The notes beneath the pieces are model-generated. The model searched no databases. It saw nothing but the letters and a program-made list of their open reading frames with translations, and was not told where the DNA came from. 64,000 nt of DNA from an uncultured SAR116 cluster alpha proteobacterium (GTDB taxonomy: Bacteria; Pseudomonadota; Alphaproteobacteria; Puniceispirillales; Puniceispirillaceae): NCBI GenBank assembly GCA_902596655.1, contig CACJUX010000006.1, positions 1 to 64,000 on the forward strand, read 5' to 3'. Below, piece by piece: positions 38,390 to 60,597 of the stretch. The translations under genes were made by a program, and so were the position numbers. Every line of letters starts with the position of its first letter. The first letter of the stretch is position 1.

Positions 38390-38399
38390 GGAAATGTTT

Positions 38400-39395: not shown

Positions 39396-39434
39396 TTGGC
39401 AACTTTCGGAACAAGATCAACCCCCTGATACCCC

Positions 39435-40631
39435 ATGGCGAAAGTGCAAAATAATTTAGTCATCGAGGCAGTTGATGAAATAGCTGGTGCAATTCGATTA
39501 GTAACCGGTGTTGATGGAGCCGTGCTTCATGAACCAATGATTGGTCAGGTTGAATTGGACGCAGTGCATCACTGTATTTCTGGTGGGTTTGTCTCCTCTG
39601 TGGGTCCCGCGATAACACAGTTTGAGAACATGATTTGTGACTACACAGCGGCTGAACATGCGATTGCTGTTGTGAATGGTACGGCGGCCTTGCATCTTAT
39701 GCTGGTGGCCAATGACATCAGTTCAAATAGCGAGGTTCTGGTGCCGGCGCTGACCTTTGTTGCATCTGGAAATGCGATTTTGCAGGCTAATGCTATGCCT
39801 CATTTTGTGGACAGTTCGCCTGCCGACCTTGGCATTGATGTCTCAAAACTTGATGGTTACCTCGCCGATATTACGGAAATGCGCGACGGTTGCTGTTGGA
39901 ATGTAAAAACAGGTCGGATCATTTCGCATGTCATGCCTGTTCATGTGTTTGGCCATATCGGCAATGTCGAGGGCCTGAACGCGTTGGCTGAGCGTTATAA
40001 CATCAAAATTGTGGAGGATGCAGCGGAGGCTCTTGGCAGTTGGAAAGGTGGCTGCCACGCAGGCTTATTCGGAACATGTGGTGCGTTGAGTTTCAATGGT
40101 AATAAAATTGTTACGACCGGTGGAGGCGGCGCAATACTTACAAATGATGCCAAACTTGCCAAGCGCATTCGTGCCCTCGCGACAACAGCAAAACGTGATC
40201 ACCCATTTCTTTATTGGCATGAGGCTCGCGGTTTCAATTATAGAATGCCGGCATTGAATGCGGCATTTGGTGTCGCTCAAATGGCGCGCCTTGATGCAAT
40301 GTTGGAGGCCAAACTGCGCCTAAGGATGACATATCAGGATGCTTATTTGACATCTATTTATGCGACTTTCTTCGCTGGGCCGGATGATTGTCAGGGCAAC
40401 CACTGGCTAAATGCAATTCAGTTGGACGAGTCTTTATCGCAACATCGTGACGCCATTCTGCATGGTTTGAATGAGCGTGGCTATGGCTGCCGCCCTGTTT
40501 GGAATTTACTGTTTGAATTGCCACATTTTAAAGACTGCCCTTCCATGCCATTGGATCAAGCGGCCGATCTCGTAAACCGCTTGATCAACATTCCTAGTAG
40601 CGCCATGTTGGCTTCAGATTTGGTAAGCTGA
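39435..40631 (+). CDS. legC: PLP-dependent aminotransferase, LegC type
   Basis: A 398-residue DegT/DnrJ/EryC1-family enzyme. It has the LegC-like VSSVGPAITQFENMICDYT, the substrate/PLP region AIAVVNGTAALHL, the aspartate in KIVEDAAEALGSW and the PLP lysine in LSFNGNKIVTTGGGGAIL. It would put an amino group on the 4-keto sugar made by LegB. The inserted block around residues 145-165 (ITEMRDGCCWNVKTGRII) is also seen in this subgroup. It overlaps the acetyltransferase gene by one base. Confidence 0.88.
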   Translation: MAKVQNNLVIEAVDEIAGAIRLVTGVDGAVLHEPMIGQVELDAVHHCISGGFVSSVGPAITQFENMICDYTAAEHAIAVVNGTAALHLMLVANDISSNSEVLVPALTFVASGNAILQANAMPHFVDSSPADLGIDVSKLDGYLADITEMRDGCCWNVKTGRIISHVMPVHVFGHIGNVEGLNALAERYNIKIVEDAAEALGSWKGGCHAGLFGTCGALSFNGNKIVTTGGGGAILTNDAKLAKRIRALATTAKRDHPFLYWHEARGFNYRMPALNAAFGVAQMARLDAMLEAKLRLRMTYQDAYLTSIYATFFAGPDDCQGNHWLNAIQLDESLSQHRDAILHGLNERGYGCRPVWNLLFELPHFKDCPSMPLDQAADLVNRLINIPSSAMLASDLVS

Positions 40632-41239
40632 TGGTTAATCAAATTGCTCTTGTTGGCGGCGGTGGGCATGCGAGTTCGTGCGTTGAACTTATTAGCCAAT
40701 CAGAGCGGTTTGAGTTGCTCGGCTATGTAGCACCTGAAAAGAGTTCGCTCATGGAAGATATAGACGTGGAGTTTTTGGGTAGCGATCAGGTGTTGCAAAG
40801 ACTGGTGGCGAATAACACTTGCCTTCATGTTGCTGTCGGACAGATTAAGAGCTCGGATAAACGGTGTGCGCTATATTCAGCAATAAGAAGCATGGGAGGG
40901 GATTTACCTAATCTTGTGGCCGCTAATGCTGTGGTTACGAAGACAGCCAGCCTGGGATGTGGGAATTTTGTGGGACTGTTGGCTGTGATAAATGCCACGG
41001 TTCAGGTTGGCGATAATTGCATTATCAATACAGCTGCTATTTTAGAGCACGGCGTTCTCATTGGTGATCACTGTCACATTGCCCCAGGCGCTGTTGTTCT
41101 TGGTGATGCCGTTATCGAAAGCCATAGCTTTGTTGGATCGGGCGCCATAATAAGAGAGGGAGTGCGTATTGCCCGAGGGAGTGTTGTTCCAGCTGGTGCC
41201 CGCATAATGTCAGATAATGAAAAACGCAACTTCAAATAA
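40631..41239 (+). CDS. legH: Sugar N-acetyltransferase, NeuD/PglD/LegH type
   Basis: A 202-residue left-handed beta-helix acetyltransferase. Residues 1-90 form the small Rossmann-like PglD_N domain (ALVGGGGHASSCVELI). The rest is hexapeptide repeats (VVTKTASLGCGNFV, IINTAAILEHGVLIGDHCHI) with the catalytic histidine in the LEHG context. In the legionaminic pathway the enzyme acetylates the C4 amino group using acetyl-CoA. It overlaps legC by one base and legI by 23 bases. Confidence 0.87.
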   Translation: MVNQIALVGGGGHASSCVELISQSERFELLGYVAPEKSSLMEDIDVEFLGSDQVLQRLVANNTCLHVAVGQIKSSDKRCALYSAIRSMGGDLPNLVAANAVVTKTASLGCGNFVGLLAVINATVQVGDNCIINTAAILEHGVLIGDHCHIAPGAVVLGDAVIESHSFVGSGAIIREGVRIARGSVVPAGARIMSDNEKRNFK

Positions 41240-42236
41240 CATTATGATCATTGCAGAAGTGGGCGTTAACCATAATGGCGATTTCGATCTTGGTCGAAAG
41301 CTTATAGATGTTGCTGTGGAATGTGGTGCTGATATAGTCAAATTTCAGACTTTTGTTGCTAATCGATTGGCAACTAAGCATGCGCCCCAGGCCTCTTATC
41401 AAAAACAGAATCTTGGCGCGGAACAAAGCCAAATTGATATGCTGGCAAAACTCGAGTTAACCCAGGAAATGCATGTTGTTTTGCTGGAGTATTGTCGGTC
41501 AAAGAATATCGAATTTTTGTCAACGGCTTTTGATGCTGTAAGCTTGGACTATCTTGTTGACTTGGGTATCAAGCGCATAAAGGTGCCCTCTGGGGAGTTA
41601 ACAAATCTTCCCTACCTAGAAGATGTAGCATCCAAGGGATTACCTGTGATTTTGTCCACTGGCATGGCTGATCTTGATGAGGTGCGAGACGGTGTTGCTA
41701 TCTTGATAGCTGGGGGTGTTGCGCTCAGTGATCTCACAATACTTCACTGCACCAGCAATTATCCAGCGCAACCCGGTGAATTGAATATGTTGGCTGTCAG
41801 GACTTTGTATGAAGAGTTTGGTTGCGATATCGGTTATTCTGACCACTCATCTGGTTGTGAGGCCGCTATGCTGGCGGTTGCGTTAGGTGCAACAGTGCTG
41901 GAAAAACATATCACATTAAATCAAACCATGTCCGGGCCCGACCACTTAGCAAGCATGGAACCAGATGAGTTCAAAAACTATGTGAAAACTGCTCGCATGG
42001 CTGCTTCAGCTTTGGGTGATGGGATAAAAAAGCCCTCTAAAGCAGAGGCTGAAACCGCTTTGACAGTTCGAAAATCAATAGTTGCTTTAAGGCCGATTTC
42101 AATTGGTGAGATATTTTCGACAGAGAATTTAACAACAAAGAGGCCTGGTGCAGGTATTTCCCCCATGCGGTGGCATGATGTAATTGGTAAGCGAGCAACA
42201 CGCAACTTTGCTGCTGATGAAATGATCGAGGTGTAG
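41217..42236 (+). CDS. legI: Legionaminic acid synthase (NeuB family)
   Basis: A 339-residue PEP-condensing synthase. The TIM barrel begins IMIIAEVGVNHNGDFDLGRK and shows IKRIKVPSGELTNLPYL, ILSTGMADLDEV, ILHCTSNYPAQP and GYSDHSSGCEAAMLAVALGA followed by EKHITLNQTMSGPDH. A C-terminal SAF antifreeze-like domain follows (from about 278, VRKSIVALRPISIGEIFS). It would join PEP and a 2,4-diacetamido-trideoxy-mannose to give legionaminic acid. The start at 41217 overlaps legH; 41244 is an alternative. A second NeuB-type synthase lies in the fusion gene at 50387. Confidence 0.88.
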   Translation: MKNATSNNIMIIAEVGVNHNGDFDLGRKLIDVAVECGADIVKFQTFVANRLATKHAPQASYQKQNLGAEQSQIDMLAKLELTQEMHVVLLEYCRSKNIEFLSTAFDAVSLDYLVDLGIKRIKVPSGELTNLPYLEDVASKGLPVILSTGMADLDEVRDGVAILIAGGVALSDLTILHCTSNYPAQPGELNMLAVRTLYEEFGCDIGYSDHSSGCEAAMLAVALGATVLEKHITLNQTMSGPDHLASMEPDEFKNYVKTARMAASALGDGIKKPSKAEAETALTVRKSIVALRPISIGEIFSTENLTTKRPGAGISPMRWHDVIGKRATRNFAADEMIEV

Positions 42237-42240
42237 CCCC

Positions 42241-43374
42241 ATGAAAATAATGGCAATAACCACGACACGGGCAGATTATGGGATCATGTCAGGTTTACTC
42301 AGGGAACTACAGGACTCGACGAAATTGGATCTGAAATTAGTTGTAAGTGGCACGCATATTTCAAAGAAATTTGGCACTACAATAAATGAAATAATTAACG
42401 ACGGCATTGAGGTTGCACATGTCTTGGACTTCGCACTTGAAAATGAGACCGAGGCGGGATTATGTGCTTCTACCGGTGGTTTTTTGAGAGATTTTGGAGA
42501 ACTTCTTTGTAAAGAAAAGCCTGATTTAATAATGGTGCTTGGTGATCGATTTGAAATTATAGCACCTGTTACTTGCGCAGTGATCAAGCGCATCCCCATA
42601 GCGCATATTCACGGTGGGGAGGTTACTTTAGGCGCAATCGATAATAAAATCAGAGATGCTATTACACAAATGGCAGATATTCATTTTGTTGCGACCGCCC
42701 GAGCCGCTAAGCGAGTTAACACAATCAAACCAAACGATGAAGATGTTTACCACGTTGGTAGTCTTAGCGTTGATAAGCTATCCTGCATGCGTCTACTGAA
42801 TCGATCAGAGCTTGCCAAGCATTATGGATGGGACGTCAATTGCAAGATTGCCATTATCACCTATCATCCGGAGTCTATGTCTTCAACTTCGCCTTTAGAG
42901 CAAGTAGAGGAGTTGATAAAGGTGTTAGATGAATATCCAGAGCTTTTCATGGTCATTACTTTGTCCAATGCCGATGTTGGTGGTGGTGAAATTTCGAGAA
43001 CATTGAATGAATTTGCGTTAGAGAGAAAAAATGTAGCTGCCTATGCCAGCCTTGGACAATTGGCATATCTCTCTTGTTTAGCTAATTTTGACCTCGTAAT
43101 TGGGAATTCATCGAGTGCAATCATTGAAGCGCCAATCTTTGGGCTGCCAACGGTCAATATTGGCAGTCGCCAGTCGGGTCGGGAGATGGCACCGAATATT
43201 ATTAATGTGGATTGTAAATATGAGTCAATAAAAGCTGGTGTTGAAGATGCTTTGAGCAGACCTAAATCTTCGAAGCATAACATTCACGATTTGCCATATG
43301 GTAAATTGGGCGCAACGGCTAATATTTTGGCTGTCTTGGAACAGTTTTCTTCCGAACAGGTCAGGAGTGTTTGA
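42241..43374 (+). CDS. legG: Hydrolysing UDP-sugar 2-epimerase, NeuC/LegG type
   Basis: A 377-residue GT-B-like epimerase that removes the nucleotide and inverts C2. It has the NeuC start MKIMAITTTRADYGIMSGLL, the segment PDLIMVLGDRFEIIAPVT, the histidine-rich IPIAHIHGGEVTLGAIDN, and the later GNSSSAIIEAPIFGLPTVNIG typical of this family. It supplies the substrate for LegI. It sits 4 bases after legI and overlaps the amidotransferase gene by one base. The order B-C-H-I-G is a full set from nucleotide-GlcNAc to free legionaminate. Confidence 0.9.
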   Translation: MKIMAITTTRADYGIMSGLLRELQDSTKLDLKLVVSGTHISKKFGTTINEIINDGIEVAHVLDFALENETEAGLCASTGGFLRDFGELLCKEKPDLIMVLGDRFEIIAPVTCAVIKRIPIAHIHGGEVTLGAIDNKIRDAITQMADIHFVATARAAKRVNTIKPNDEDVYHVGSLSVDKLSCMRLLNRSELAKHYGWDVNCKIAIITYHPESMSSTSPLEQVEELIKVLDEYPELFMVITLSNADVGGGEISRTLNEFALERKNVAAYASLGQLAYLSCLANFDLVIGNSSSAIIEAPIFGLPTVNIGSRQSGREMAPNIINVDCKYESIKAGVEDALSRPKSSKHNIHDLPYGKLGATANILAVLEQFSSEQVRSV

Positions 43375-44594
43375 TGGTCATGAAGCCCCTTGAAAAACAG
43401 ATGCCACTAATTCCAACAAATGTGGAATGGTGCCAGAAATGTGTGGTCTCCAACCAAAGGCCACGGATTACTTTTGACGAAAACGGGGTTTGTGCGGCAT
43501 GTAACAACCGTGCTTCACGCAAAAGTATCGACTGGCAGGAGAGAGAAAGGCAACTTACTGAATTACTTGATCGGCATCGAGATGTAACTGGTTCCTGGGA
43601 TGTTGTGGTGCCAAGCAGCGGTGGTAAAGATTCTTGTTATGTTGCGCACCAATTGAAAAATGAATATGGAATGAACCCGATTCTGATTACTTGGAGTCCA
43701 TTAAAATATACCGATATAGGTTTGCAGAATTTTGATGCTCTGAGTGATTCTGGTTTTACTGCAATACGGTGCACACCAGACGGACAAATTCACCGTAAGT
43801 TGGCACGGCTTTGTTTCGAAGAGTTTGGCGATGCATTCCATGTATTTGTTTTGGGCCAAGTTTATTTTCCAATTCATATGGCACTAAAATTTGGTATCGA
43901 TTTGATATTTTATGGGGAAAATGGCGAGGTGGAATACGCTGGTGATCCGACCTTCGTCGACCAGCCTTATCGAGATCTTCTAAATGATGAAGCTTGGCTT
44001 AAAGGCTACATGAAAGGCACCACTATTGACGAGTTGATCGCCTACGGTGTGGAGACCAAGGACTACATGAAAGATATAAACTGGTCCAAATGTGATCTCA
44101 GTTTCTATCGTCCGCCCAAAGTTGAAGAAATGAGGACAAAAAATACTTCAAAACTTCATTTTTTTGGCTATTTCAAGGAATGGATACCTCAGGAGAACTT
44201 CTACTACGCAGCCGAGCACACAGGCTTTAAGCCAAACCCGGAACGTACTGAAGGAACCTATTCTAAATACGCCAGTCTCGATGATAAAATGGACGGCTTT
44301 CATTACTATATGCGATACATCAAATTTGGGCTAGGGCGGTGTATGGAGGATGCGGCACACGAGATAAGAGATGGCCACATAACCCGCGAGGAAGGCATTG
44401 CCCTAATGGATAGGTTCGAAGGTGAGTTTCCAGCGAGGTATTTTTCAGAGTTTATCGAATATCTTGATATTACTGTAGATCATTTCTGGAGTGTCGTAGA
44501 CGAATGGCGCCCCCCACACTTATGGCAAAAAGATGGAAATAATTGGGTGTTAAAAACACCTCTGAATGAAATCACGCCAGACAGCAACAATTAA
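43374..44594 (+). CDS. N-acetyl sugar amidotransferase (PseA/WbpG type)
   Basis: A 406-residue PP-loop ATP-dependent enzyme. An N-terminal zinc-type cysteine set CQKC ... CAAC (near residues 20 and 45) is followed by the pyrophosphatase loop VVVPSSGGKDSCYVAHQL and the family block VYFPIHMALKFGIDLIFYGE. Members turn an N-acetyl group into an acetamidino group on pseudaminic/legionaminic or uronic sugars, with ammonia supplied by HisH/HisF-like partners. No such partners are visible here. This suggests an acetamidino derivative of the locus's nonulosonic acid. The ATG at 43374 is fused to the legG stop (TGATG). Confidence 0.85.
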   Translation: MVMKPLEKQMPLIPTNVEWCQKCVVSNQRPRITFDENGVCAACNNRASRKSIDWQERERQLTELLDRHRDVTGSWDVVVPSSGGKDSCYVAHQLKNEYGMNPILITWSPLKYTDIGLQNFDALSDSGFTAIRCTPDGQIHRKLARLCFEEFGDAFHVFVLGQVYFPIHMALKFGIDLIFYGENGEVEYAGDPTFVDQPYRDLLNDEAWLKGYMKGTTIDELIAYGVETKDYMKDINWSKCDLSFYRPPKVEEMRTKNTSKLHFFGYFKEWIPQENFYYAAEHTGFKPNPERTEGTYSKYASLDDKMDGFHYYMRYIKFGLGRCMEDAAHEIRDGHITREEGIALMDRFEGEFPARYFSEFIEYLDITVDHFWSVVDEWRPPHLWQKDGNNWVLKTPLNEITPDSNN

Positions 44595-45639: not shown

Positions 45640-46404
45640 ATGAATGTAGTCGGTATTGTTCAGGCGCGAATGGGTTCTACTCGGTTGCCTGGAAAAACAC
45701 TGGTGGGCATTGAAGGCCGGCCGATGCTTGAGTGGATGCTAATGCGTGTCCAACAGTCCTCATTGCTGGATAGATTAATTGTTGCAACAACTGATCAGCC
45801 TTCAGACGACCAACTAGAAAGTTGGCTAAAAAAAAATACTAGTATCGAGTGTTTCAGGGGAAGTGAAAATAATCTGGTTTCCCGGTTTTACCATTGTGCA
45901 CAAAATGCAAATGCAGATGTAATTGTAAGACTGACCGCAGACGATCCCCTCAAAGATCCAGAGATAATTGATCATGCTGTAAAACTTTTCTTAATGCATG
46001 ATGATGTTGATTATTGTTCAAATTGCCTTGAGCCCACCTACCCAGAGGGTTTGGACGTTGAAGTATTTTCCATGCAAGCCCTCCAAAAAACATACAACGA
46101 AGCCAGATTATCTTCAGAAACTGAGCATTTGACGCCATTCATGACAAATAACCCTGGAAAGTTTCGTACGTTAAATTTTGAGTGTTACGAGGATCTTAGC
46201 TCATGGCGATGGACCGTTGATAAACCAGCAGATTTGACATTTATGACAGAAATTTTTGCCCATTTTAAAAATGAACCTTTAGCAGGGTACAGACAAATAG
46301 TTGAATTTATAAAGGCTAATCCAGACTTATTAAAAATAAACGCAGGGACTGTAAGGTTCGAGGGATATCTGAAGTCAGTCAAGATGGAGACGAAGCCATG
46401 CTGA
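45640..46404 (+). CDS. SpsF-type cytidylyltransferase-like protein (candidate CMP-sugar synthetase)
   Basis: A 254-residue nucleotidyltransferase-fold protein. It opens with VVGIVQARMGSTRLPGKTL, the SpsF form of the CMP-sugar synthetase P-loop-like motif, and contains VRLTADDPLKDPEIIDHA and YPEGLDVEVFS. The family is related to NeuA/KdsB but distinct. No standard NeuA/LegF gene lies in the window, so this protein is the best candidate to make the CMP-activated nonulosonic acid, or its analogue made by the fusion enzyme. It overlaps the following aminotransferase gene by 7 bases. Function is inferred. Confidence 0.75.
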   Translation: MNVVGIVQARMGSTRLPGKTLVGIEGRPMLEWMLMRVQQSSLLDRLIVATTDQPSDDQLESWLKKNTSIECFRGSENNLVSRFYHCAQNANADVIVRLTADDPLKDPEIIDHAVKLFLMHDDVDYCSNCLEPTYPEGLDVEVFSMQALQKTYNEARLSSETEHLTPFMTNNPGKFRTLNFECYEDLSSWRWTVDKPADLTFMTEIFAHFKNEPLAGYRQIVEFIKANPDLLKINAGTVRFEGYLKSVKMETKPC

Positions 46405-47594
46405 CCAATCGCATTTTTGGTAACGAGCTAAAATACCTTGAAGAGGTTTTAGAAAGTGGTTTTCGTGCATCTAGTGGTGCAAGTATGATGCAGCGTTTTG
46501 AGAAAGCATTTGCTTCCAAGTTTGATGTATCGCATGGCGTTGCATTTGTTAATGGCACTGCAACTATGCACGCCGCACTTGAAGCATGGGGTATTGGTTC
46601 TGGAGACGAAGTTATCGTCCCGCCTATGACTATGGCATCTACTACATTTGCTGTTTTGCAGTGTAATGCGACGCCAATCTTCGCAGATATCGACCCAAAA
46701 ACTTTTCAAATTTGTTCTAACTCTATCGCGGAAAATATTACAAATAAAACCAAGGCAATTATAACAGTGGCATTGTTTGGGCTAAGTCCTGACATGGATC
46801 CAATAATGGCTCTAGCGAGGAAACATGGTCTAAAAGTGTTAGAAGACAACGCTGAGTGTTTTCTCGGTGAATATAAGGGAAGGCTTGCAGGTACTATCGG
46901 AGATTGCGCTAGTTATAGCCTTCAAAATTCTAAACACCTTACAAGTGGGGAGGGCGGTATTGTTATCACAAATGATGAGGAGTTTGCAGTAAAGCTGAGG
47001 AAGATAGCATCGCTTGGATATTCAGGTGTATCAGCCACTAGTGGTAAAGTAACCCGCCAGGAAATCCAGAGTCCAGATTATTTTCGACATGTTTCTCTCG
47101 GTTGGAATTATAGAATGCCAGAGTTGTGTTGCGCGGTTGCGCTCGCTCAAGTGGAGAATATCGATACTCTTGTAAAGCGCCGAAAAGACGTAGGAGAGTT
47201 GTTCAGTGAAGTTGTGAGGCCATTTAGACAGTGGTTTGTACCGCAATCTACCCCATCTTATGCCGTCCATTCGTATTGGACATTTGCTGCTTATCTAGCT
47301 CGTGATGATATTACTTGGTATGAACTCAGAGAAAAATTTGCCTCGTTGGGTGGTGATGGTGTCTATGCTTGTTGGAAATTAACTTACAAGGAACCTTTTT
47401 TGGCAAACATGGAAGTGCTTGGGCGGGAGCAATTTATCTCGCAAAGAAATATTGACAAGTACCAAACTGGAATTTGCCCAGTCGCTGAATCTCTTCAGCC
47501 CAGAATGTTTATGTTCAAAACCAACTACTGGGATTGGCAAAAAGCTCTGTCTCAGGCTGAAATTTTGAGCGAAACGCTCAGTCATTTTGCATAG
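46398..47594 (+). CDS. DegT/DnrJ/EryC1/StrS sugar aminotransferase
   Basis: A 398-residue PLP-dependent enzyme. The family regions are GVAFVNGTATMHAALEA, DEVIVPPMTMASTTFAVLQC, LKVLEDNAECFLGEYKG and CASYSLQNSKHLTSGEGG, where the lysine binds PLP. It differs from the LegC-type gene upstream and from the third aminotransferase at 56699. Next to an SpsF-like gene and rmlB, it resembles the SpsC position of spore-coat-type clusters and could aminate a dTDP-4-keto-6-deoxy sugar. The exact position and stereochemistry are unknown. Confidence 0.83.
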   Translation: MLTNRIFGNELKYLEEVLESGFRASSGASMMQRFEKAFASKFDVSHGVAFVNGTATMHAALEAWGIGSGDEVIVPPMTMASTTFAVLQCNATPIFADIDPKTFQICSNSIAENITNKTKAIITVALFGLSPDMDPIMALARKHGLKVLEDNAECFLGEYKGRLAGTIGDCASYSLQNSKHLTSGEGGIVITNDEEFAVKLRKIASLGYSGVSATSGKVTRQEIQSPDYFRHVSLGWNYRMPELCCAVALAQVENIDTLVKRRKDVGELFSEVVRPFRQWFVPQSTPSYAVHSYWTFAAYLARDDITWYELREKFASLGGDGVYACWKLTYKEPFLANMEVLGREQFISQRNIDKYQTGICPVAESLQPRMFMFKTNYWDWQKALSQAEILSETLSHFA

Positions 47595-47611: not shown

Positions 47612-48685
47612 ATGACCCGTTCATCAAAAACAAAAAAATATATGGTCACTGGGGGATGTGGATTTATTGGCTCTACCTTTGTTCGTAAAGCTGCCCACCT
47701 CGGAACAAAACTACTCGTTGTTGACAAAATTACTTACGCTGCAAATGAGGCGAGCATCGCCTCCGAACTTAAATCTGACAAAGTAAATATGTTGCGTGAA
47801 GACATCTGCGACCAGAGTAAAATGTATGATGTTATGAAGCAGTTTTGCCCAGACGCAGTGGTCCATTTTGCGGCAGAATCGCATGTTGATAATTCAATTG
47901 ACGCTCCCGAAAATTTCATTCAGAGCAATATTGTCGGCACTTACTCTCTTCTGATGGCGGCACTTACCTATTGGAAATTGGACTGCCGGCTTGGCCAGAA
48001 CCAATTTAAATTTCATCACGTATCCACAGACGAGGTATATGGAGATCTTCCCCTCGAAGATCCTGACGATATCCAACTAAAGAGTGTTCAAAAATTCAGC
48101 GAAATAACGCCTTATATGCCAAGCTCGCCGTATTCCGCGTCAAAGGCTGCATCGGACCATTTGGTACGTGCTTGGCATAGGACATATGGATTACCTGTTA
48201 CAATATCCAATTGTTCCAACAATTATGGGCCGTTTCAAAATATTGAAAAATTAATACCAAAGACGATTTCAAACGCCATAAATATGCAAAAAATTGGAAT
48301 TTATGGTGATGGTGGCAATGTTAGAGATTGGTTGTTCGTGGAGGATCATATTGAAGCTCTGATGCTCATTTTAGAAAAAGGACAAATTGGAGAAACTTAT
48401 AATGTTGGATCACGGTCAGAGTTCCGCAATATCGATCTAGCGCGCTTGGTATGTGAGAAATTAGAGCAATTCTATCCGATTGCGCACAATCCAAAAAACC
48501 TCGCTGGATTAGTGTCATACATTGACTTGATTGAATTGGTGCCGGATCGGCCTGGGCATGATAGGCGTTATGCAATTGACCCATCTAAGATTGAACGTGA
48601 ATTGGGATGGCGACCCGTCACAGGGATAGAGGAAGGCGTTGAAATGACTATTGAACATTTCATGTCTGAAATATGTATAACCTAA
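47612..48685 (+). CDS. rmlB: dTDP-glucose 4,6-dehydratase
   Basis: A 357-residue extended SDR enzyme. It has the NAD site VTGGCGFIGSTFVRKA, the conserved VHFAAESHVDNSID, the catalytic STDEVYGDLP and YSASKAASDHLVRAW, and NCSNNYGPFQNIEKLIPK, all typical of RmlB. It makes dTDP-4-keto-6-deoxyglucose. The RmlA-type gene is 4 kb downstream. rmlC and rmlD are absent, so the product is probably an amino sugar made with one of the aminotransferases rather than rhamnose. Its end is followed by a decayed stretch of about 1 kb. Confidence 0.9.
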   Translation: MTRSSKTKKYMVTGGCGFIGSTFVRKAAHLGTKLLVVDKITYAANEASIASELKSDKVNMLREDICDQSKMYDVMKQFCPDAVVHFAAESHVDNSIDAPENFIQSNIVGTYSLLMAALTYWKLDCRLGQNQFKFHHVSTDEVYGDLPLEDPDDIQLKSVQKFSEITPYMPSSPYSASKAASDHLVRAWHRTYGLPVTISNCSNNYGPFQNIEKLIPKTISNAINMQKIGIYGDGGNVRDWLFVEDHIEALMLILEKGQIGETYNVGSRSEFRNIDLARLVCEKLEQFYPIAHNPKNLAGLVSYIDLIELVPDRPGHDRRYAIDPSKIERELGWRPVTGIEEGVEMTIEHFMSEICIT

Positions 48686-48851: not shown

Positions 48852-49617
48852 TTGATAATAAATCCTACACTCGACGCATTGTCTGCAATCGGCAGAGTTG
48901 AGCGTTTGGTTTTAAACTGGTTTGTTGATTTTGAGCAGAAAACCCTCGACTTGATTATTGCCTTTGCTACGCAGGCGGACTGGACAAAAATATTATGCAA
49001 TCAAACCAAATGCTATGACAATCGATAGTGTGATGGAGCACATACTGAAACGTCCAAGTGAAAATGTACTTATCATTGGAACAGGGTGCATTGTATTTCT
49101 ATTGGCGCAGCGTTTGGAAATTGTTGGTAGGAACTACAGGTGGTTCGGCGAAAAAATCGACCCAACGGATCAAGTAGAAAAATGCATAGGGAGTTTAATG
49201 AAAGCATTTTCAATTCGAGTGAAAATTGGCAAGGTGGGTTAATTGTCAACGCTGTACCTGAGTAAATTGATTTACCAGACGTTTTTTTCGAGTCATTTAA
49301 GACTATTTATTCAAGTATGTGGAGCATGACTCGAATATGTAAGAAAGTTTGAATGCGATCTAATCCGATTAGATGCCACAGACCTGTTAACAAGACATGT
49401 TGCCTACAAATCGAACAACACACGGTCTAACCAAACCTGTCACAGTTCAATTAAAAATCTTATAGATAGACCTTCTAACTTACTAGGGAATTGGAGCGAC
49501 ATTGTGGTTGATGATTATTTGGACCCAAAATATGTTATTGGAATAGCCGATGTGTGTGGAGTGGTAAAAGAGCGTCTTAGCCGTGCATTTAATATTTCAG
49601 ATTGGATTGAGACCTAG
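48852..49617 (+). pseudogene. Decayed coding stretch between rmlB and the SDR gene
   Basis: The interval 48686-49655 (970 bases) has no intact gene but keeps coding-like reading. From 48852 a TTG-started frame runs 58 codons (INPTLDALSAIGRVERLVLN...). A second frame, open from 48955 and containing an ATG at 49015, continues to 49617 with only two in-frame stops (49240-49242 and 49327-49329). It ends in a protein-like tail (KYVIGIADVCGVVKERLSRA). So few stops in AT-rich DNA suggests a gene lost by a frameshift and nonsense changes. I could not identify the family. A short possible peptide also starts at 48673 inside the rmlB end. Confidence 0.45.
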
Positions 49618-49655: not shown

Positions 49656-50390
49656 ATGAACAAAATTATTGTTACCGGAGTATGGGGTCAACTCGGCTCA
49701 GCTATTGTTGATTTGCTCTTAGAGGCTGGTAATTACGTAATAGGCTTAGACGTCAAAAATGATGGTAAGAAGTCTCATAATGACTTGTTTGAATTTCATC
49801 AAATTGACATTACTGATCAGCTTAGAGTTCGTGAATTTTACTCGCAAATGATGTCACAGCATCCACAAATTGATGGTTTAGTGAACAATGCCGGCACTGC
49901 AGTCTTCACTAAATTTGAAAATCGTAGCGAAGAAGAAATTATGAATGTAATCAGACTGAATATGATGGCTCCAATATTTATGTCACAACAATTTCTTAAC
50001 GTTGCCAAGAGCAATTACAAGTCATCCATTGTCAACATCGGCTCCATTTATGGTGTTACTGCACCTGATCAAAGTATTTATTCGGATACGCCGAGAAATT
50101 CTTCTGAAATTTACGGCATGACCAAGGCAGCAATAATAAATCTAACGCAATATTTAGCTGTTTATCTGTCAGACAGAAGGATCCGCTGTAATTGTGTCTC
50201 GCCCGGAGGAATATTGTTCAAGCAAGGAGAAAGGTTTATCGAAGCTTATTCTAACAAAGTTCCAATTGGAAGAATGGGTTCTGAGAGAGAGGTTGCCGCT
50301 GCTGTTTGTTTTTTGCTAGACGCAGAAAAATCGTCCTATGTAAATGGAGCTAATTTGATGGTCGATGGTGGATTTACAGCGTGGCGATGA
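49656..50390 (+). CDS. Short-chain dehydrogenase/reductase
   Basis: A 244-residue classical SDR. The NAD(P) site reads VTGVWGQLGSAIVDLLLEAG, with a tryptophan in place of the usual small residue of the glycine motif. VNNAGTAVFTKF follows. The catalytic serine is in NIGSIYGV, then Y-x3-K in YGMTKAAIINL, and the end has VNGANLMVDGGF. Related proteins (PtmA-like) accompany legionaminic-type clusters, where they may act on the sugar or its precursor. AGAAGGAATAG is a good ribosome site. It overlaps the fusion gene by four bases (ATGA), so the two products probably act together. Confidence 0.8.
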   Translation: MNKIIVTGVWGQLGSAIVDLLLEAGNYVIGLDVKNDGKKSHNDLFEFHQIDITDQLRVREFYSQMMSQHPQIDGLVNNAGTAVFTKFENRSEEEIMNVIRLNMMAPIFMSQQFLNVAKSNYKSSIVNIGSIYGVTAPDQSIYSDTPRNSSEIYGMTKAAIINLTQYLAVYLSDRRIRCNCVSPGGILFKQGERFIEAYSNKVPIGRMGSEREVAAAVCFLLDAEKSSYVNGANLMVDGGFTAWR

Positions 50391-52780
50391 AAAATTTTGT
50401 AATTTTTGGAGCTGGCGTCACGGGTCTCACTCTTGCCAATGAGTTGTTGAAAGCTGGTTCAAGTGTGACGGTTTTGGAAGCAACCAATAATGTTGGGGGG
50501 CTTGCTCGAACTGACGTTGTGGATGATGTTCCGTTTGATGCCGGCCCTCACCTTTTTCATTCTGCACATTCTGAAATAATTGATTATTGGCGTGAACTTG
50601 TGGGCGATGCTCTTGTGGAAAAATCTTTTCATGCGGGAAACTACCAAGCGGGTAAGATATATGACTATCCCATAAACAAACAAACAATGCCTGACCAGTA
50701 TGAGCCAAGAGAAATAGAATTGATCATGGATCAACTAAATAGTTGTGACCCATCGGAGTTAGCCTCCGCAAAAAATTACAACGAATATGTTAGTGCCCTC
50801 GCCGGCCCTTTTTTATGTGACAAGTTTTTCACAAAATATCCGCAAAAATTATGGGGCCTGAATACAGAGAATCTGTCGGCGCGGTTTGCCCCGAGGCGCA
50901 TTGAAATTCGAGATACTAGGAGATCATTTCATTCTGGGCCAGGTCGATTTGCAGGTGTTATTGAGGGTGGTTGTGGAAGATTAGCGCGGATGCTTTCCCA
51001 AAACATAGAGGCTATGGGCGGAGAGATAGTTCTTACTGCTGAGGTAGTGGCAATCAATTACGACACTCAGGCTGGCAAGATAAAAAAAGCTCATATAAAA
51101 AATGGCCGGACGATGGATTTAGAAGGATCAATAGTAGTTTCTACTCTTCCGGTGACCAAAAACGCAAAATTGCTTGGGATTGATACAAAACTTTACTTTA
51201 GATCGGTGCTAACGGTTAACATACTCTATCATGGCGATGAAAAATTCCCCACTGAGTATGATTGGCTATACTTCGACGATTTTGGTGTTCCTTTTCACCG
51301 AATTGGGATGCAAACGCGCTTTAGTAAGCAGAATGTATTAGAAAATCACCATATCTTGTGTTGTGAAGTCGTCTACCAAGATTTTTTGTCTGTTAAAGAG
51401 ATTGATAATATACAAAACTCCTGTGTTGAGTTGCTTCATCAAATGGATTTTGTTGATAAGTCAAGGATTGTAAAGGTCTACTCCAATGATCTTGGCCCAG
51501 TATACCCTGGATACTACTTGGGACATGAACGCGAATTAGCCTCGGTGACCAGTCAACTGGCAGCATATCAAAATCTTTACTCTTTGGGCTCTCTCGCAGA
51601 ATACTCTTACTCTGATCTGCAAGTTTTGACGGCAAAGTCAATCGACTTGGCAAAGGATTTAACAGCGGAAAATACCCTATCGGGAAATGATTTGGCAAAA
51701 CGAAAGACACGTCTTGAACCTGCTAAAATGATTGATTTTGGACCCGCAAAAATATCGCAAGATACATCTGAGCCTGTTTTCCTTATAGGCGAGATAGGTT
51801 TGGCACATAATGGTGATATTGCGCTTTGTAAACAAATGATCAAAAAAGTGCATGAAGCTGGCTTTAACGCGGCCAAGATACAGACTTACTCAAAAGGACG
51901 AATTTCAAACAAAACCCGGACAGCAAAATATTTTGAGGAAAGCGTTGACCAAGAAGAGTCCATTTCAAGCTATCTGGACAAAATTATGTTTGACTTTAAC
52001 GACCTCCAAGACCTTAAGGCTTATGCGGATAGTCTTGGATTGATATTTTTTTCCACACCTTTTGACGTTCCATCGTTAAACCAACTCGATGAAGTTGGTT
52101 GTGCTGGATTTAAAATTTCTTCTATGGACATCGTCAATTTACCGCTAATTAGATCGGCTGCTAAAACAGGAAAGCCTGTGATTTTATCGACTGGTATGGC
52201 TAATCTAGGTGACATTGAAACTGCGGTGGAAGTGATGCTAGAGCATAACAACTCGCAGGTAATTCTTCTTCATTGTGTGTCGTCTTATCCATGCGATATG
52301 CGCTTTGCAAATCTCTCAAGAATAAAAAAACTTGCTGACACATTTGGAATTGTGGCTGGGTATTCCGACCACACAGCTGAAGTGGAAACGCCAGCCTTAG
52401 CGGCTGTGCTTGGAGCGCGCGTTATTGAAAAACATGTAACGATGGATAAAGGGTTAGACGGGCCGGATCATAGCTTTTCATTGAACCCAAATGAGATGCT
52501 TCAAATGGTGAATCTTGTTCGCAAATCAGAGATGTCAATTGAGGCTAAAGAGAGTGATATCGCAGCTGCTGAGTTGAAAACACGACAACAACTTCGAAGG
52601 AGTATATACGCAGCCACTGATCTTGGTCCTGGTGATATTCTAACTGCTGATACAATAGTCATAAAATCTCCGGGAGATGGTCTTTCTGCAAAGCTATTTG
52701 ACACTGTTGTAGGGTGTCGCCTTGTGAAGGGGATTAGCGCTGACAGTCCCTTGTCTTGGGATAATCTTATTAATCGATGA
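50387..52780 (+). CDS. Fusion of an FAD-dependent oxidoreductase with a NeuB-type sialate/legionaminate synthase
   Basis: A single 797-residue frame. Residues 1 to about 430 are an amine-oxidase/UDP-galactopyranose-mutase-like flavoprotein: dinucleotide site FVIFGAGVTGLTLANELL, GGLARTDVVDDVPFDAGPHL, and a late SLGSLAEYSYSDLQV where such proteins bind FAD. After a linker of about 30 residues, a NeuB barrel runs from about 463 (VFLIGEIGLAHNGDIAL) with ISSMDIVNLPLI, ILSTGMANLGDIETAV, LLHCVSSYPCDMRF, GYSDHTAEVETPALAAV and EKHVTMDKGLDGPDH. A SAF domain follows from about 734. All NeuB motifs are intact. I chose ATG 50387. It is clearly distinct from the LegI at 41217. The flavoprotein's sugar step is unknown. 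Confidence 0.85.
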   Translation: MKNFVIFGAGVTGLTLANELLKAGSSVTVLEATNNVGGLARTDVVDDVPFDAGPHLFHSAHSEIIDYWRELVGDALVEKSFHAGNYQAGKIYDYPINKQTMPDQYEPREIELIMDQLNSCDPSELASAKNYNEYVSALAGPFLCDKFFTKYPQKLWGLNTENLSARFAPRRIEIRDTRRSFHSGPGRFAGVIEGGCGRLARMLSQNIEAMGGEIVLTAEVVAINYDTQAGKIKKAHIKNGRTMDLEGSIVVSTLPVTKNAKLLGIDTKLYFRSVLTVNILYHGDEKFPTEYDWLYFDDFGVPFHRIGMQTRFSKQNVLENHHILCCEVVYQDFLSVKEIDNIQNSCVELLHQMDFVDKSRIVKVYSNDLGPVYPGYYLGHERELASVTSQLAAYQNLYSLGSLAEYSYSDLQVLTAKSIDLAKDLTAENTLSGNDLAKRKTRLEPAKMIDFGPAKISQDTSEPVFLIGEIGLAHNGDIALCKQMIKKVHEAGFNAAKIQTYSKGRISNKTRTAKYFEESVDQEESISSYLDKIMFDFNDLQDLKAYADSLGLIFFSTPFDVPSLNQLDEVGCAGFKISSMDIVNLPLIRSAAKTGKPVILSTGMANLGDIETAVEVMLEHNNSQVILLHCVSSYPCDMRFANLSRIKKLADTFGIVAGYSDHTAEVETPALAAVLGARVIEKHVTMDKGLDGPDHSFSLNPNEMLQMVNLVRKSEMSIEAKESDIAAAELKTRQQLRRSIYAATDLGPGDILTADTIVIKSPGDGLSAKLFDTVVGCRLVKGISADSPLSWDNLINR

Positions 52781-53562
52781 GTCCGATTGTGATCAAAAAA
52801 GCCATTCTTTTGGCGGGCGGTGAGGGGACACGTCTTCACCCATTCACTCTCTATACGTCAAAACACCTTCTTCCAGTTTTTGACAAACCAATGATTGTGT
52901 ATCCGCTCACAAATTTGATTTTACTGGGTGTTGAAACTGTTTATCTAGTAATAAACGCCGTCCATCGTGCACAGTGGGAGGCACTTTTCAAATCTTTGGA
53001 TCTGAGCGTGGACATTTTGCTTATTGAGCAAGAAAGGCCAGATGGTATACCTCAAGCAATTTCATTGTGTGAAAGTTATCTTGATGGTGATCCTTTCTTT
53101 TTAGCTTTGGGTGATAATATTCTGCTCGGCTCTGGGTTGTTGAATAGGTTCTGTTCACAAATTTCGGATAATCCGGGAGACTCGATAATAATTTCATACA
53201 AGGTTAGCAATCCAAGATTTTTCGGAGTCGCAGAATTAGACGATAATGGTGAGTTAATAAAAATTGTCGAAAAGCCGACTGATATAGTATCCAACCTCGC
53301 TATTGTTGGGCTCTACAAATTTAATTCAGATGCGCCATCTCTGGTAAGGAATCTCAAGAAAAGTGCAAGAGGTGAGTATGAAATTTCAGATCTGATAAAC
53401 CAATACATAGCAATGCAAAAATGCCAAATGCTAGCCTGCAATGAAGCTAGTGATTACTGGCTTGACACGGGGACAATCGAGTCGATCACATCTGCCACAA
53501 TATTTCTTAGGGAGCTCAATTTAAGTGGCATAAAAGTAATTGGAAATTTAACGAAAGATTAG
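52777..53562 (+). CDS. rmlA: Glucose-1-phosphate thymidylyltransferase-like nucleotidyltransferase
   Basis: A 261-residue enzyme with the RmlA signature AILLAGGEGTRLHPFTLYTS followed by KHLLPVFDKPMIVYPL. ALGDNILLGSGL carries the metal-binding aspartate, and RFFGVAELDDNGELIKIVEKP is also typical. It is a little shorter than classical RmlA (about 290). It would make dTDP-glucose for RmlB. It overlaps the fusion gene by 4 bases (ATGA), so in this operon order the nucleotide sugar gene follows the NeuB fusion directly. Confidence 0.87.
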   Translation: MSPIVIKKAILLAGGEGTRLHPFTLYTSKHLLPVFDKPMIVYPLTNLILLGVETVYLVINAVHRAQWEALFKSLDLSVDILLIEQERPDGIPQAISLCESYLDGDPFFLALGDNILLGSGLLNRFCSQISDNPGDSIIISYKVSNPRFFGVAELDDNGELIKIVEKPTDIVSNLAIVGLYKFNSDAPSLVRNLKKSARGEYEISDLINQYIAMQKCQMLACNEASDYWLDTGTIESITSATIFLRELNLSGIKVIGNLTKD

Positions 53563-56698: not shown

Positions 56699-57871
56699 GT
56701 GAAATACCCTCTCATGAGAAATAATTTTACGCGTTATGATCTCGATAACGTTATTGAACTTTTACAAAGTGACGACCCACGCCTGACTAACGGTGTTAAG
56801 GTTCGAGAATTTGAGGCAGAATGGAGCAATTGGCTTGGGGTCAAATATTCAGTCTTTGTTAATTCAGGATCGTCTGCAAACCTCTTGTCAATGGCCGTGC
56901 TCAAACTTAAGCATCCTGAAGGTGGACAAGTCATTGTGCCGCCTCTGACCTGGGTGTCCGATATTGCCTCAGTATTGCAAAGTGGGTTTGATCCAGTTTT
57001 TGTGGATATAGATCTGCGCACCCTCGGGATGGAAACGCAGGCAATCATCGATGCAATTACCCCGTCAACACGTGCAGTTTTTCTATCCCATATTCAGGGG
57101 TTTAATGCCTTAACCGATCGGCTTTTAGAGGAATTAGAACAAAGAGATATTCTATTGATTGAGGATGTTTGCGAGTCACATGGCGCATTACATAATTCTC
57201 AAAAGGTAGGTAGTTTTGGCTGGATTTCCAATTTCTCTTTCTATTACGCTCACCACATGAGCACTATTGAAGGCGGTATGATTTGCACAAATGATACGGA
57301 AACTTATCGTCTGTTGCGAATGCTTCGTTCGCACGGGATGGTTAGGGAGATTGATGATGAAAAAGAACAGCAGAGTTGGTTGTCAGCTAATCCAGATTTA
57401 AATCCAAAATTTATTTTTGCTCTTCCAGCCTATAATGTGCGAAATACCGAAATTGGTGCAACTCTCGGTCTATCACAATTGAAGCGTCTTGATGCAAACA
57501 ACGCTGTCAGAACCAGTAATCTGATGCGCTTCCTTGCAAACTTAGATCCTGAGAAATTTCAGACAAATTTTAAAACTGAGGGATCGAGCAACTACGCCTT
57601 TAATCTTGTTCAGTTGGAAGCTGATGACGATCTCGCTGCAAGGTTAATGTCAGCAATGGACTTCAATGAAATTGAATATCGCCGAGGAAGCGCTGGCGGT
57701 GGCAATCAACTTCGTCAACCTTATTTGCGGCCGTATGTGTCTGACCCAAAGGCCCATAAGAAATTTCCAATCACTGATCACATCCATTTTTATGGTTACT
57801 ATATCGGAAATTTTCCTGACCTCAAGCACGAGGACGTGGACTTTATTTGTGACGTGCTGAATAACGCATGA
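56699..57871 (+). CDS. DegT/DnrJ/EryC1/StrS sugar aminotransferase (third in the locus)
   Basis: A 390-residue PLP enzyme. The start MKYPLMRNNFTRYDLDNVIE fits the known beginning of its subgroup and uses a GTG at 56699; an ATG five codons later is possible. Family regions are KYSVFVNSGSSANLLSMAV, QVIVPPLTWVSDIASVLQ, LIEDVCESHGALH and a PLP pocket that reads FSFYYAHHMSTIEGGM. In that pocket the usual lysine position carries histidine (HH), which in this superfamily points to dehydratase-like or reduced-aminotransferase members (as in ColD). So dehydration or deamination of a sugar is an alternative. It overlaps hddC by 4 bases. Confidence 0.78.
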   Translation: MKYPLMRNNFTRYDLDNVIELLQSDDPRLTNGVKVREFEAEWSNWLGVKYSVFVNSGSSANLLSMAVLKLKHPEGGQVIVPPLTWVSDIASVLQSGFDPVFVDIDLRTLGMETQAIIDAITPSTRAVFLSHIQGFNALTDRLLEELEQRDILLIEDVCESHGALHNSQKVGSFGWISNFSFYYAHHMSTIEGGMICTNDTETYRLLRMLRSHGMVREIDDEKEQQSWLSANPDLNPKFIFALPAYNVRNTEIGATLGLSQLKRLDANNAVRTSNLMRFLANLDPEKFQTNFKTEGSSNYAFNLVQLEADDDLAARLMSAMDFNEIEYRRGSAGGGNQLRQPYLRPYVSDPKAHKKFPITDHIHFYGYYIGNFPDLKHEDVDFICDVLNNA

Positions 57872-58590
57872 CGAATCAAATAGAGTGTTTATCGGCAGTT
57901 GTTTTAGCTGGGGGACTTGGAACCCGTCTCAAGAAAGTTGTTAAGGATGTTCCAAAATCAATGGCTCCAATTAACGGGAGACCGTTTTTGGAATACCAAC
58001 TGACTTTTCTTGAGCAGTCAGGCATTCGAAATGTTATACTTGCCACCGGTTACAAGTCTGAAGTAATTTTTGAGTACTTTGGTTATCAATTTCGTTCATT
58101 ATCACTATGTTACAGCAATGAAGATGAACCCCTCGGCACAGGTGGAGGGTTAATCAAAGCGGCAAATCTAGCGGACCCCACTCAGCATCTCTTCGTTATG
58201 AACGGAGATACATACTTTCCGATTTCATTGACCAAGATGATGGAATTCCATCAGACAAGCTACGCCGATTTTACCATGGCAATTATCAAGAACACAGACT
58301 TTGACCGCTATTCAGCCTTTGACATTACATCTGGTGGTCGGCTATTGCCTGCTTCTGATAGTGCTTCGATAAACAAAAGTGGCGGCATTTACCTTCTCTC
58401 TCCAGAGATGGTTTCTGACCTTCAGTCCAGAGTGGTGGAAAGATCGTCGTTTGAAGATGACCTTACTCCCTCTTATCTCAATTCAGACCTAAAGCTTTTT
58501 GCTTACGTTGGAGATGCTCCATTTGTTGATATTGGTATCCCAGAAGATTACTACAAAGCGGGCCAACTGATTGATGAATATGAAAATTGA
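57868..58590 (+). CDS. hddC: Sugar-1-phosphate nucleotidyltransferase, HddC type
   Basis: A 240-residue guanylyl/uridylyltransferase-fold enzyme. It has AVVLAGGLGTRLKKVVKDVP then KSMAPINGRPFLEYQL (the HddC form), GTGGGLIKAANL and the metal-binding VMNGDTYF. HddC attaches GMP to D-glycero-alpha-D-manno-heptose 1-phosphate. The matching kinase HddA is 1 kb downstream, which supports heptose activation. GmhA and GmhB are not in the window. It lacks the CBS pair of PtmE-type guanylyltransferases, so it is less likely to make GDP-GlcNAc for LegB. Confidence 0.82.
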   Translation: MTNQIECLSAVVLAGGLGTRLKKVVKDVPKSMAPINGRPFLEYQLTFLEQSGIRNVILATGYKSEVIFEYFGYQFRSLSLCYSNEDEPLGTGGGLIKAANLADPTQHLFVMNGDTYFPISLTKMMEFHQTSYADFTMAIIKNTDFDRYSAFDITSGGRLLPASDSASINKSGGIYLLSPEMVSDLQSRVVERSSFEDDLTPSYLNSDLKLFAYVGDAPFVDIGIPEDYYKAGQLIDEYEN

Positions 58591-58626
58591 AAAACCCGAC
58601 TTAAAAGGAAAGCAAGGAGCCTCAAA

Positions 58627-59565
58627 ATGACGGTAAAGATTTTGGTTACTGGTGGTTGTGGCTATCTGGGCTCCATACTTGTTCCACGTCTTTTGGATGC
58701 CGGTCATAGTGTATTGGTTTCTGATAATTTGATGTTTGGTCAGATCAGCCTCAACCACGTATGTCACCACCCTAACTTTGATTTTATAAGAGCAGATGTA
58801 CGGCTTAAGGACGAAATGAAACCCCTTTTTGCAAAGGCTGATATTATTATACCCCTTGCTGCCTACGTTGGCGCGCCACTGTGTAAGAGAGACCCGATTG
58901 GCGCGCATACGGTCAATAATGAAGCAATTAAGATGATGCTGGCTAATCTTTCATCTGAACAGTTGGTGCTTATGCCAACGACGAATAGCGCCTATGGTAG
59001 CGGTGATGAAAACAATTATTGTGATGAAAATTCACCACTTAATCCCATCTCAAAATATGCGTTGGACAAGGTGGAAATAGAGCAGGAATTGATGAACCAT
59101 GAAAGTGCTATCAGTTTCCGTCTTGCGACCGTCTTTGGGATGTCACCAAGAATGAGGCTGGATCTTCTGGTCAATGATTTCACTTATCGTGCAGTAAATG
59201 ACGGCTTTGTGGTGTTGTTTGAAAGCCACTTTAAACGCAATTATATCCATGTCATCGATGTTGCGCGTGTATTTCTTCATGGGATTGGAAATCACAAATC
59301 CATGGTCGGCGAGATATATAATGTTGGGCTGTCTGATGCGAACGTGTCGAAATGGGAATTGTGCGAGACAATAGCGCGTCATGTTGAAAACTTCTACTTT
59401 GTCGAAGCTGAAGTTGGTGTAGATCCTGATCAAAGGAATTACATCGTTTCTAATGCGAAGATAGAAGCATGTTGCTTCAAGCCGAAAGTGTCACTTGATG
59501 CAGGCATAGCTGAACTGGTCAAGGGCTATCGGATGATTAACAATCGGAAATATGGAAATATTTAG
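58627..59565 (+). CDS. NAD-dependent epimerase/dehydratase (extended SDR)
   Basis: A 312-residue extended SDR. The NAD site is KILVTGGCGYLGSILVPRLL. The catalytic serine/threonine region reads MPTTNSAYGSGDENNY, with YALDKVEIEQEL as the Y-x3-K pair. The C-terminal region YNVGLSDANVSKWEL is typical of nucleotide-sugar epimerases. A strong ribosome site AGCAAGGAG precedes it. Between hddC and hddA it may modify GDP-heptose, but dehydratase and epimerase roles cannot be told apart by eye. Confidence 0.8.
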   Translation: MTVKILVTGGCGYLGSILVPRLLDAGHSVLVSDNLMFGQISLNHVCHHPNFDFIRADVRLKDEMKPLFAKADIIIPLAAYVGAPLCKRDPIGAHTVNNEAIKMMLANLSSEQLVLMPTTNSAYGSGDENNYCDENSPLNPISKYALDKVEIEQELMNHESAISFRLATVFGMSPRMRLDLLVNDFTYRAVNDGFVVLFESHFKRNYIHVIDVARVFLHGIGNHKSMVGEIYNVGLSDANVSKWELCETIARHVENFYFVEAEVGVDPDQRNYIVSNAKIEACCFKPKVSLDAGIAELVKGYRMINNRKYGNI

Positions 59566-59601
59566 TGCTGCGACAACATTTGCCGCGATGAGGTCGAGTT
59601 T

Positions 59602-60597
59602 TTGATTATTTCTAAGACACCGTATCGGATATCTTTCTTTGGTGGTGGAACTGATTTCCCCGCTTGGTATCGCGAAAATGGGGGTGCAGTTCTCTCAACT
59701 ACTATCGACAAATATTGCTATATTAGCTGTCGTAACCTGCCACCATTTTTTGAGCACAAGCATCGATTTGTATATTCTATTATTGAAGATGTTGTAAATG
59801 TTTCAGACATAAAGCATCCGGCGATCAGGGGTGTCTTTCAGTGGCTAAATATCCAGGTCGGATTGGAAATCCACCATGATGGTGACTTGCCTGCGCGTTC
59901 AGGCTTGGGTTCCAGTTCTTCATTTACAGTTGGCTTACTCAACACTTTGCGTGCTCATGCGAATAAGTATTATTCCAAAGCAAGCCTTGCAAAAGATGCC
60001 ATTTTCGTAGAGCAAGAGGTAATTGGAGAGACTGTTGGTTCCCAAGACCAAGTGGCTGCAGCTTATGGTGGTTTTAACCAAATTACTTTTGGGGGTGGTG
60101 CTGAATTCATTGTAAAACCTGTGATAATGCAACCAAAAATGCAGAGGACGTTAAACAATCATTTACTTCTTTTCTTTACGGGCGTTCAGAGGTCTGCAAG
60201 CCAAATTGAGGATGCCAAATTGAAAAGGCTTGGTCCCAATGCGCATATAATGAGGCGGATCAGCCAAATGGTTGACGAGGGGCTTGCGATGTTGACCTCC
60301 GACAACGTGGATTTTGATGGTTTTGGTAGATTGCTACATGAGGGTTGGATGGCAAAGAGTGGCCTTTCCCCAGAAGTAAGCTCTTCTCCGATTGATGAGG
60401 CTTACCAGGCGGCGCGTGAAGAGGGTGCTCTAGGGGGCAAATTACTTGGAGCTGGCGGCGGCGGATTTATGTTGATATTTGCGGACCCCAGATATCATCA
60501 AGGCATAACTCAACGACTGGCAAAATTTGTGCATGTGCCGTTTGAATTCGAAAATTCAGGGTCAACAATAGCGCTCTATCAACCATCCGGACTTTGA
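59602..60597 (+). CDS. hddA: GHMP kinase, D-glycero-D-manno-heptose 7-phosphate kinase type
   Basis: A 331-residue GHMP-family kinase. The opening ISKTPYRISFFGGGTDFPAW is typical of HddA-type kinases. The ATP loop is LPARSGLGSSSSFTVGLLN and the C-terminal glycine motif is GGKLLGAGGGGFMLIF. No ATG is in place; translation probably starts at TTG 59602, with GAGG about 10 bases upstream. With hddC it would make GDP-heptose from sedoheptulose-derived heptose 7-phosphate. The TTG start may lower its expression relative to its neighbours. Confidence 0.85.
   Translation: MIISKTPYRISFFGGGTDFPAWYRENGGAVLSTTIDKYCYISCRNLPPFFEHKHRFVYSIIEDVVNVSDIKHPAIRGVFQWLNIQVGLEIHHDGDLPARSGLGSSSSFTVGLLNTLRAHANKYYSKASLAKDAIFVEQEVIGETVGSQDQVAAAYGGFNQITFGGGAEFIVKPVIMQPKMQRTLNNHLLLFFTGVQRSASQIEDAKLKRLGPNAHIMRRISQMVDEGLAMLTSDNVDFDGFGRLLHEGWMAKSGLSPEVSSSPIDEAYQAAREEGALGGKLLGAGGGGFMLIFADPRYHQGITQRLAKFVHVPFEFENSGSTIALYQPSGL

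Follow-up and report, generated by a model that had tools for sequence, protein, structure and literature searches.

The window analysed here is a stretch of 64,000 nucleotides from a contig of a SAR116 cluster alphaproteobacterium, whose assembly is a MAG with a completeness of 73% and a contamination of 2%. On its plus strand, a gene at positions 50387 to 52780 encodes a protein of 797 residues, in which an FAD domain resembling UDP-galactopyranose mutase (UGM) is joined via a flexible linker to a NeuB domain and a SAF domain. The reading frame starts with the ATG at 50387 (the in-frame GTG at 50381 is a possible alternative), ends with the stop at 52780 and has zero interruptions; it is the only full-length copy of the fusion in the assembly. 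The Pfam domains NAD_binding_8 (residues 6-71), Amino_oxidase (12-260), NeuB (484-719, E-value 2e-76) and SAF (737-794) were all found above their gathering scores. Thus, the earlier note was right in describing one continuous frame which joins a flavoprotein of about 430 residues to a NeuB barrel plus SAF domain. The FAD domain comprises approximately residues 1-430 (50387 to 51676) and is followed by the linker (about residues 430-463; 51674 to 51775), by the (βα)8-barrel of NeuB (51776 to 52543) and by the SAF domain (52595 to 52768). An AlphaFold2 model of the fusion gave a mean pLDDT of 85; the linker is partly of low confidence, and the placement of the domains relative to each other is unreliable.

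All neighbouring genes named in the following lie on the plus strand as well. The start of the fusion gene overlaps a gene for an SDR-family oxidoreductase (49656 to 50390); in 11 of 23 loci, a member of the same family lies at most four genes away from the fusion. Its end overlaps the gene of an RmlA-like sugar-1-phosphate nucleotidylyltransferase (52777 to 53562), which scores below the RmlA equivalog cut-off and is a neighbour common to the window and locus L044. Upstream are located RmlB, a dTDP-glucose 4,6-dehydratase scoring above the equivalog cut-off (47612 to 48685), a DegT-family aminotransferase (46398 to 47594), which shares 48% identity with an aminotransferase of fusion locus L058, and a CTP_transf_3 cytidylyltransferase (45640 to 46404). 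The latter is a candidate CMP-nonulosonate synthetase and has relatives in the fusion loci L047, L058, and L061. Outside this module, a separate NeuB/LegI-type synthase (41217 to 42236) scores 448.8 against the NeuB equivalog cut-off of 399.65 and adjoins a NeuC-type hydrolysing UDP-GlcNAc 2-epimerase (42241 to 43374). That the locus has a separate LegI had been recognized before, and its place in a LegB-LegC-NeuB-NeuC cluster distinct from the fusion corroborates this. With LegB, LegC, NeuB, NeuC, and an amidotransferase of the WbuX type, the legionaminic-type set at 38394 to 44594 is complete, so that the fusion is part of another, second synthase system. Farther downstream, at 56699 to 60597, an aminotransferase, an HddC-like guanylyltransferase, an epimerase, and an HddA-like kinase, all with scores below the equivalog cut-offs, suggest that this surface-sugar island also has a branch for GDP-heptose.

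The same architecture occurs in 21 further loci and in one phage. In a set of 151 genomes, made up of that of the window and 150 relatives, a full-length, stop-free fusion was found in six relatives; two of these are 52-62% and four are about 32% identical to the window fusion, and the closest fusion-bearing relatives are recorded as SAR116 cluster bacteria. A contig scan with the single window protein as query gave zero matches; an alignment of seven sequences was needed. Profile scans of the collections, which were driven by FAD-domain peptide patterns only, yielded the full-length, stop-free architecture in about 20 genome contigs. The carriers belong to SAR116, SAR11 (Pelagibacteraceae), Prochlorococcus, Synechococcaceae, Magnetococcales (a MAG whose fusion is cut off at the contig end), and two other MAGs. 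The loci L048 and L049 stem from MAGs labelled Nitrososphaerales and Elusimicrobia, for which mis-binning is possible. A NeuB tree with 93 rows placed the 23 fusions in one group with a single label change (SH-aLRT 63), which is consistent with a single origin of the fusion without proving one. As the carriers span mixed phyla, their distribution suggests horizontal transfer. No plasmid record covers 80% of the fusion; the rows listed match its NeuB half.

The earlier note had asked whether the junction might be an artefact or hide a missing stop. The stop-free relatives speak against this, and no two-gene version split at the domain junction turned up among the fetched loci. A single relative (L058) has an interruption, which lies within the FAD domain, at about residue 157, and not at the junction. 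In close pairs, dN/dS values are 0.05-0.09 for FAD and NeuB domains alike, and in most of them the linker is less constrained. Strong purifying selection acts on both domains, and the bifunctional layout is real.

Further NeuB proteins with unusual architecture were observed. In five fusion loci, a fusion of NeuB with a CTP_transf_3 cytidylyltransferase of about 580-590 residues lies next to a radical SAM/SPASM gene (L051:11463-13205, L048:5742-7514, L050:7253-8995, L062:263-2029 on the minus strand, and L064; the domains were confirmed for L051). This is another unusual nonulosonate architecture, and a candidate NeuB frame of 521 residues in the window's own genome (G000:C1:49670-50452) is a possible further case. 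Directly upstream of the Prochlorococcus fusion, a protein of 758 residues (L059:5716-7992) combines CBS, NeuB, and a xylose-isomerase-like TIM barrel; NeuB frames of similar length (749-784 residues) occur in SAR116 relatives.

With respect to the FAD domain, the solved relatives detected by sequence search are chiefly UGMs, and Foldseek matched the fusion model to the UGMs of Trypanosoma, Aspergillus, and bacteria as well as to NeuB/PseI. According to a sequence alignment, the residues H55 (50549), R171 (50897), Y295 (51269), and R305 (51299) correspond to H63, R182, Y317, and R327 of the Aspergillus enzyme, whose numbering was anchored on the mutant entries H63A, R182K, Y317A, R327K, and N207A. 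Y408 (51608) was paired with Y453 of the Aspergillus UGM by means of the C-terminal motif and not by an alignment to that enzyme. These five residues are invariant in 22 of 22 fusions and in the phage copy; Y373 (51503) is likewise invariant in all 22 and is aligned to an asparagine in the phage copy. The best full-length NCBIfam matches are NF005547 and NF005548 (PRK07208-type), which all 22 members match. The score for the UGM family TIGR00031 is 67.7 bits and lies below the cut-off of 303.75 bits. Judged by the active-site residues and the predicted fold, the FAD domain is UGM-like and not oxidase-like, which bears out the UGM half of its initial description as UGM/amine-oxidase-like. The invariance of the UGM active-site residues favours reduced-flavin nucleotide-sugar chemistry over an oxidation of the amine-oxidase type. 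For the same reason, of the two roles proposed before, namely that a precursor or product is oxidised or isomerised, a redox-neutral UGM-type isomerisation is favoured.

The NeuB half belongs to its family by virtue of the Pfam NeuB barrel and the SAF domain. It scores below the equivalog cut-offs of both TIGR03569 (NeuB; 313.8 versus 399.65 bits) and TIGR03586 (PseI; 275.1 versus 340.25 bits). Conserved barrel residues are E469, K497, Q499, K576, D581, H662, and H683, and the fusions have kept the equivalents of E25, K53, Q55, K129, S132, Y186, H215, E234, H236, and D247 of the Neisseria (Nme) enzyme. The earlier statement that all NeuB landmarks are intact holds for this core; it fails for the SAF domain, where the equivalent of Nme Arg314 is lost in every fusion with data (glycine in 14, serine in four, alanine in two, and proline in one of 21). 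In the window, S761 (52667 to 52669) occupies this position. Among 70 other NeuBs, which include with L164 (glycine) a fusion cut off at its contig end, 63 have an arginine or lysine. This SAF-domain arginine is reported to hold the N-acetyl group of ManNAc in place, and the mutant R314A is inactive (PMC6795526). Its loss points specifically to an acceptor sugar that differs, or is held in another way, in the fusions.

In 19 of 23 loci, the fusion is adjoined on the same strand by the gene of an NAD(P)-binding protein of 309-395 residues, which we call C2. It is located upstream in ten and downstream in nine cases, with a gap of -16 to +58 bp; the exception is L058 (509 bp), where the fusion frame is split. 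The four loci lacking an adjoining C2 are L044 and L052, whose contigs start at or just before the fusion, L060, whose contig ends inside it, and the window, which contains a decayed remnant with two in-frame stops (48985 to 49584, plus strand). Full-length C2 was found in five of 151 SAR116-centred and in two of 197 SAR11 genomes, each time together with the fusion; the zero matches in 385 class-level genomes at 1e-15 are uninformative alone. No Pfam or NCBIfam family convincingly claims C2. Its model (pLDDT 91) predicts a two-domain, dehydrogenase-like fold. The fold search matched mainly the Rossmann half (dipicolinate synthase A, AHCY, 2-hydroxyacid dehydrogenases); therefore, no function follows. 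Invariant residues are R47, D82, E84, K86, and N119 (numbered as in the L048 protein). C2 is a previously undescribed orphan family, tightly linked to the fusion. It is not strictly required, as it has decayed to a pseudogene in the window and no copy was detected on the phage contig. An apparent match in the SAR11 genome G709 turned out to be the C-terminal tail of an HMGL-like protein and was rejected. In a SAR11 genome, such a protein (L199:5156-7072, minus strand), which ends in a tail similar to the C-terminal motif of C2, adjoins a stand-alone NeuB.

The phage copy resides on an IMG/VR contig of 64.5 kb, which also encodes baseplate wedge and PhoH proteins; there, a fusion of 792 residues is followed by a cytidylyltransferase. 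On this contig (IMGVR_UViG_3300025141_014484; L224-L226), a large sugar-modification block surrounds the fusion and contains genes for a methyltransferase, a nucleotide-sugar epimerase/dehydratase, a DegT-like protein, and a glycosyltransferase.

Taken together, we consider it quite possible, if short of probable, that the fusion is a bifunctional enzyme of an unusual CMP-nonulosonic acid pathway, in which a UGM-type opening of a nucleotide sugar feeds NeuB. As in UGM, N5 of the reduced FAD would attack C1 of a nucleotide-activated hexose; the nucleotide would be expelled and the sugar ring opened to give a flavin iminium. Once set free, the open-chain or furanose sugar would provide the aldehyde which the attached NeuB condenses with PEP, and the product would be an unusual nonulosonic acid. 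By supplying the aldehyde, the FAD domain would stand in for NeuC, LegG, or PseG, which are used elsewhere. The substrate probably lacks the normal 2-acetamido group; the first candidate is a dTDP-6-deoxyhexose in those SAR116 loci where RmlA-like and RmlB genes flank the fusion. C2 probably oxidises or reduces the sugar; that it keeps the flavin reduced is less likely. We infer this mechanism from the conserved active sites, the loss of Arg314, the gene context, and the missing hydrolases; substrate, product, and channelling are likewise putative. More doubtful is the full scheme of a new nonulosonic acid pathway, in which an NDP-hexose would be cleaved from its nucleotide by the UGM-type reduced flavin, kept as a ring-opened adduct, and then delivered to the attached NeuB as an open-chain aldose; this would replace NeuC/LegG or PseG, and a partner enzyme that depends on NAD(P) and has not been described before would take part.

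As support for the opening mechanism we count the invariant UGM residues, the Foldseek matches, the loss of Arg314, the linkage to C2, the tree, the dN/dS values, and the operon of L045 (rmlB-C2-fusion-rmlA-like), as well as the existence of UGM-type mutases which use CDP-6-deoxyhexoses via FADH2 (PMC12369002). In addition, the NeuC family (PF02350) exceeded its cut-off in only six of 21 fusion genomes and in none of the other 15; among the six, only G519 has it on the fusion contig, beside a separate NeuB. PseG was found above the cut-off in none of the 21. The absence of NeuC is weak evidence, as many genomes are incomplete single-cell assemblies. On the opposite side, UGMs return the sugar to the nucleotide, and net sugar release by an enzyme of this family is not established in the literature covered. 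Moreover, RmlA and RmlB flank only some of the fusion loci, and the DegT aminotransferase of the window hints at an amino sugar substrate.

Alternatively, the FAD domain could be a true mutase which makes an NDP-furanose, while NeuB uses a separate free hexose of the same pathway and the fusion serves co-expression or scaffolding. The fully conserved UGM active site, the variable linker, and the known mutases acting on CDP-6-deoxyhexoses (PMC12369002) would fit. Yet the domain order is kept across phyla, and a mere scaffold would be expected to split somewhere, whereas no junction split was found among the fetched loci; we regard this as unlikely. Less probable is an amine-oxidase-like oxidase or desaturase acting on the NeuB precursor or product. 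The FAD domain exceeds the gathering score of Pfam Amino_oxidase (72.6 versus 19.8 bits), a broad family which covers only residues 12-260, and additional redox steps might be indicated by the NAD(P)-binding partner, but the closest solved relatives by sequence are UGMs, whose active-site residues are invariant in the fusions. Marginally less probable again is a later role of the FAD domain, in which it would convert, as a mutase or isomerase, the nonulosonic acid made by NeuB or its CMP form, giving for example a furanose nonulosonic acid. Many fusion loci indeed contain a cytidylyltransferase (PF02348) directly next to the fusion or close to it; the window gene at 45640 is one example, and the phage has such a neighbour as well. 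However, CMP-nonulosonates contain one phosphate, and both conserved arginines seen in UGM structures serve diphosphate sugars. An artefact of assembly or annotation, a missing stop, or a recent accidental read-through of two genes, which the 73% completeness and 2% contamination of the MAG might suggest, is refuted for practical purposes, because conserved relatives in independent single-cell genomes, MAGs, and a phage contig share the architecture and both halves are under purifying selection.

An unnamed enzyme architecture and an undescribed partner family are thus present in abundant ocean bacteria (SAR11, SAR116, picocyanobacteria) and in one phage. The partner gene, which has decayed in the window, the spread among marine plankton, and the phage copy had escaped the earlier note. 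The architecture and its partner point to a way of making nonulosonic acids that follows none of the neuraminic, legionaminic, and pseudaminic schemes; phages could plausibly use surface sugars of the nonulosonic type as receptors. UGM chemistry would be put to a new use if the flavin domain feeds NeuB. The UGM of T. cruzi is reduced by NADPH, and the reductant of prokaryotic UGMs has been called undetermined (PMC3308961); the persistent NAD(P)-binding C2 bears on this question.

As the earlier note had surmised, no named family covers the layout, and a NeuB-flavin fusion was absent from the open-access literature searched, so that a description elsewhere is possible. The UGMs (Glf, TIGR00031), especially those of the eukaryotic type (Aspergillus, Trypanosoma), share with the fusion the FAD fold and invariant equivalents of H63, R182, Y317, R327, and the C-terminal tyrosines; the fusion differs in being only about 18-20% identical, in its connection to NeuB, and in its genomic setting. 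The FAD domain scores well below the cut-offs of the PRK07208-type families NF005547 and NF005548, whose proteins are not fused; a stand-alone relative of this type with 464 residues is encoded in L196 without an adjoining NeuB. With NeuB/PseI/LegI (TIGR03569, TIGR03586) and SpsE the fusion has in common the barrel, the SAF domain, and the catalytic and metal residues, but it lies below both equivalog cut-offs, contains an N-terminal FAD domain, and has replaced Arg314. The position of Nme Glu134 is always an aspartate in the fusions, as in some stand-alone NeuBs. HS41.17 of Campylobacter, a CDP pyranose-furanose mutase (PMC12369002), is similar as an FADH2-dependent mutase of nucleotide 6-deoxyhexoses from a capsule locus; unlike the fusion, it stands alone, and its furanoses are destined for glycosyltransfer and not for nonulosonic acid precursors.
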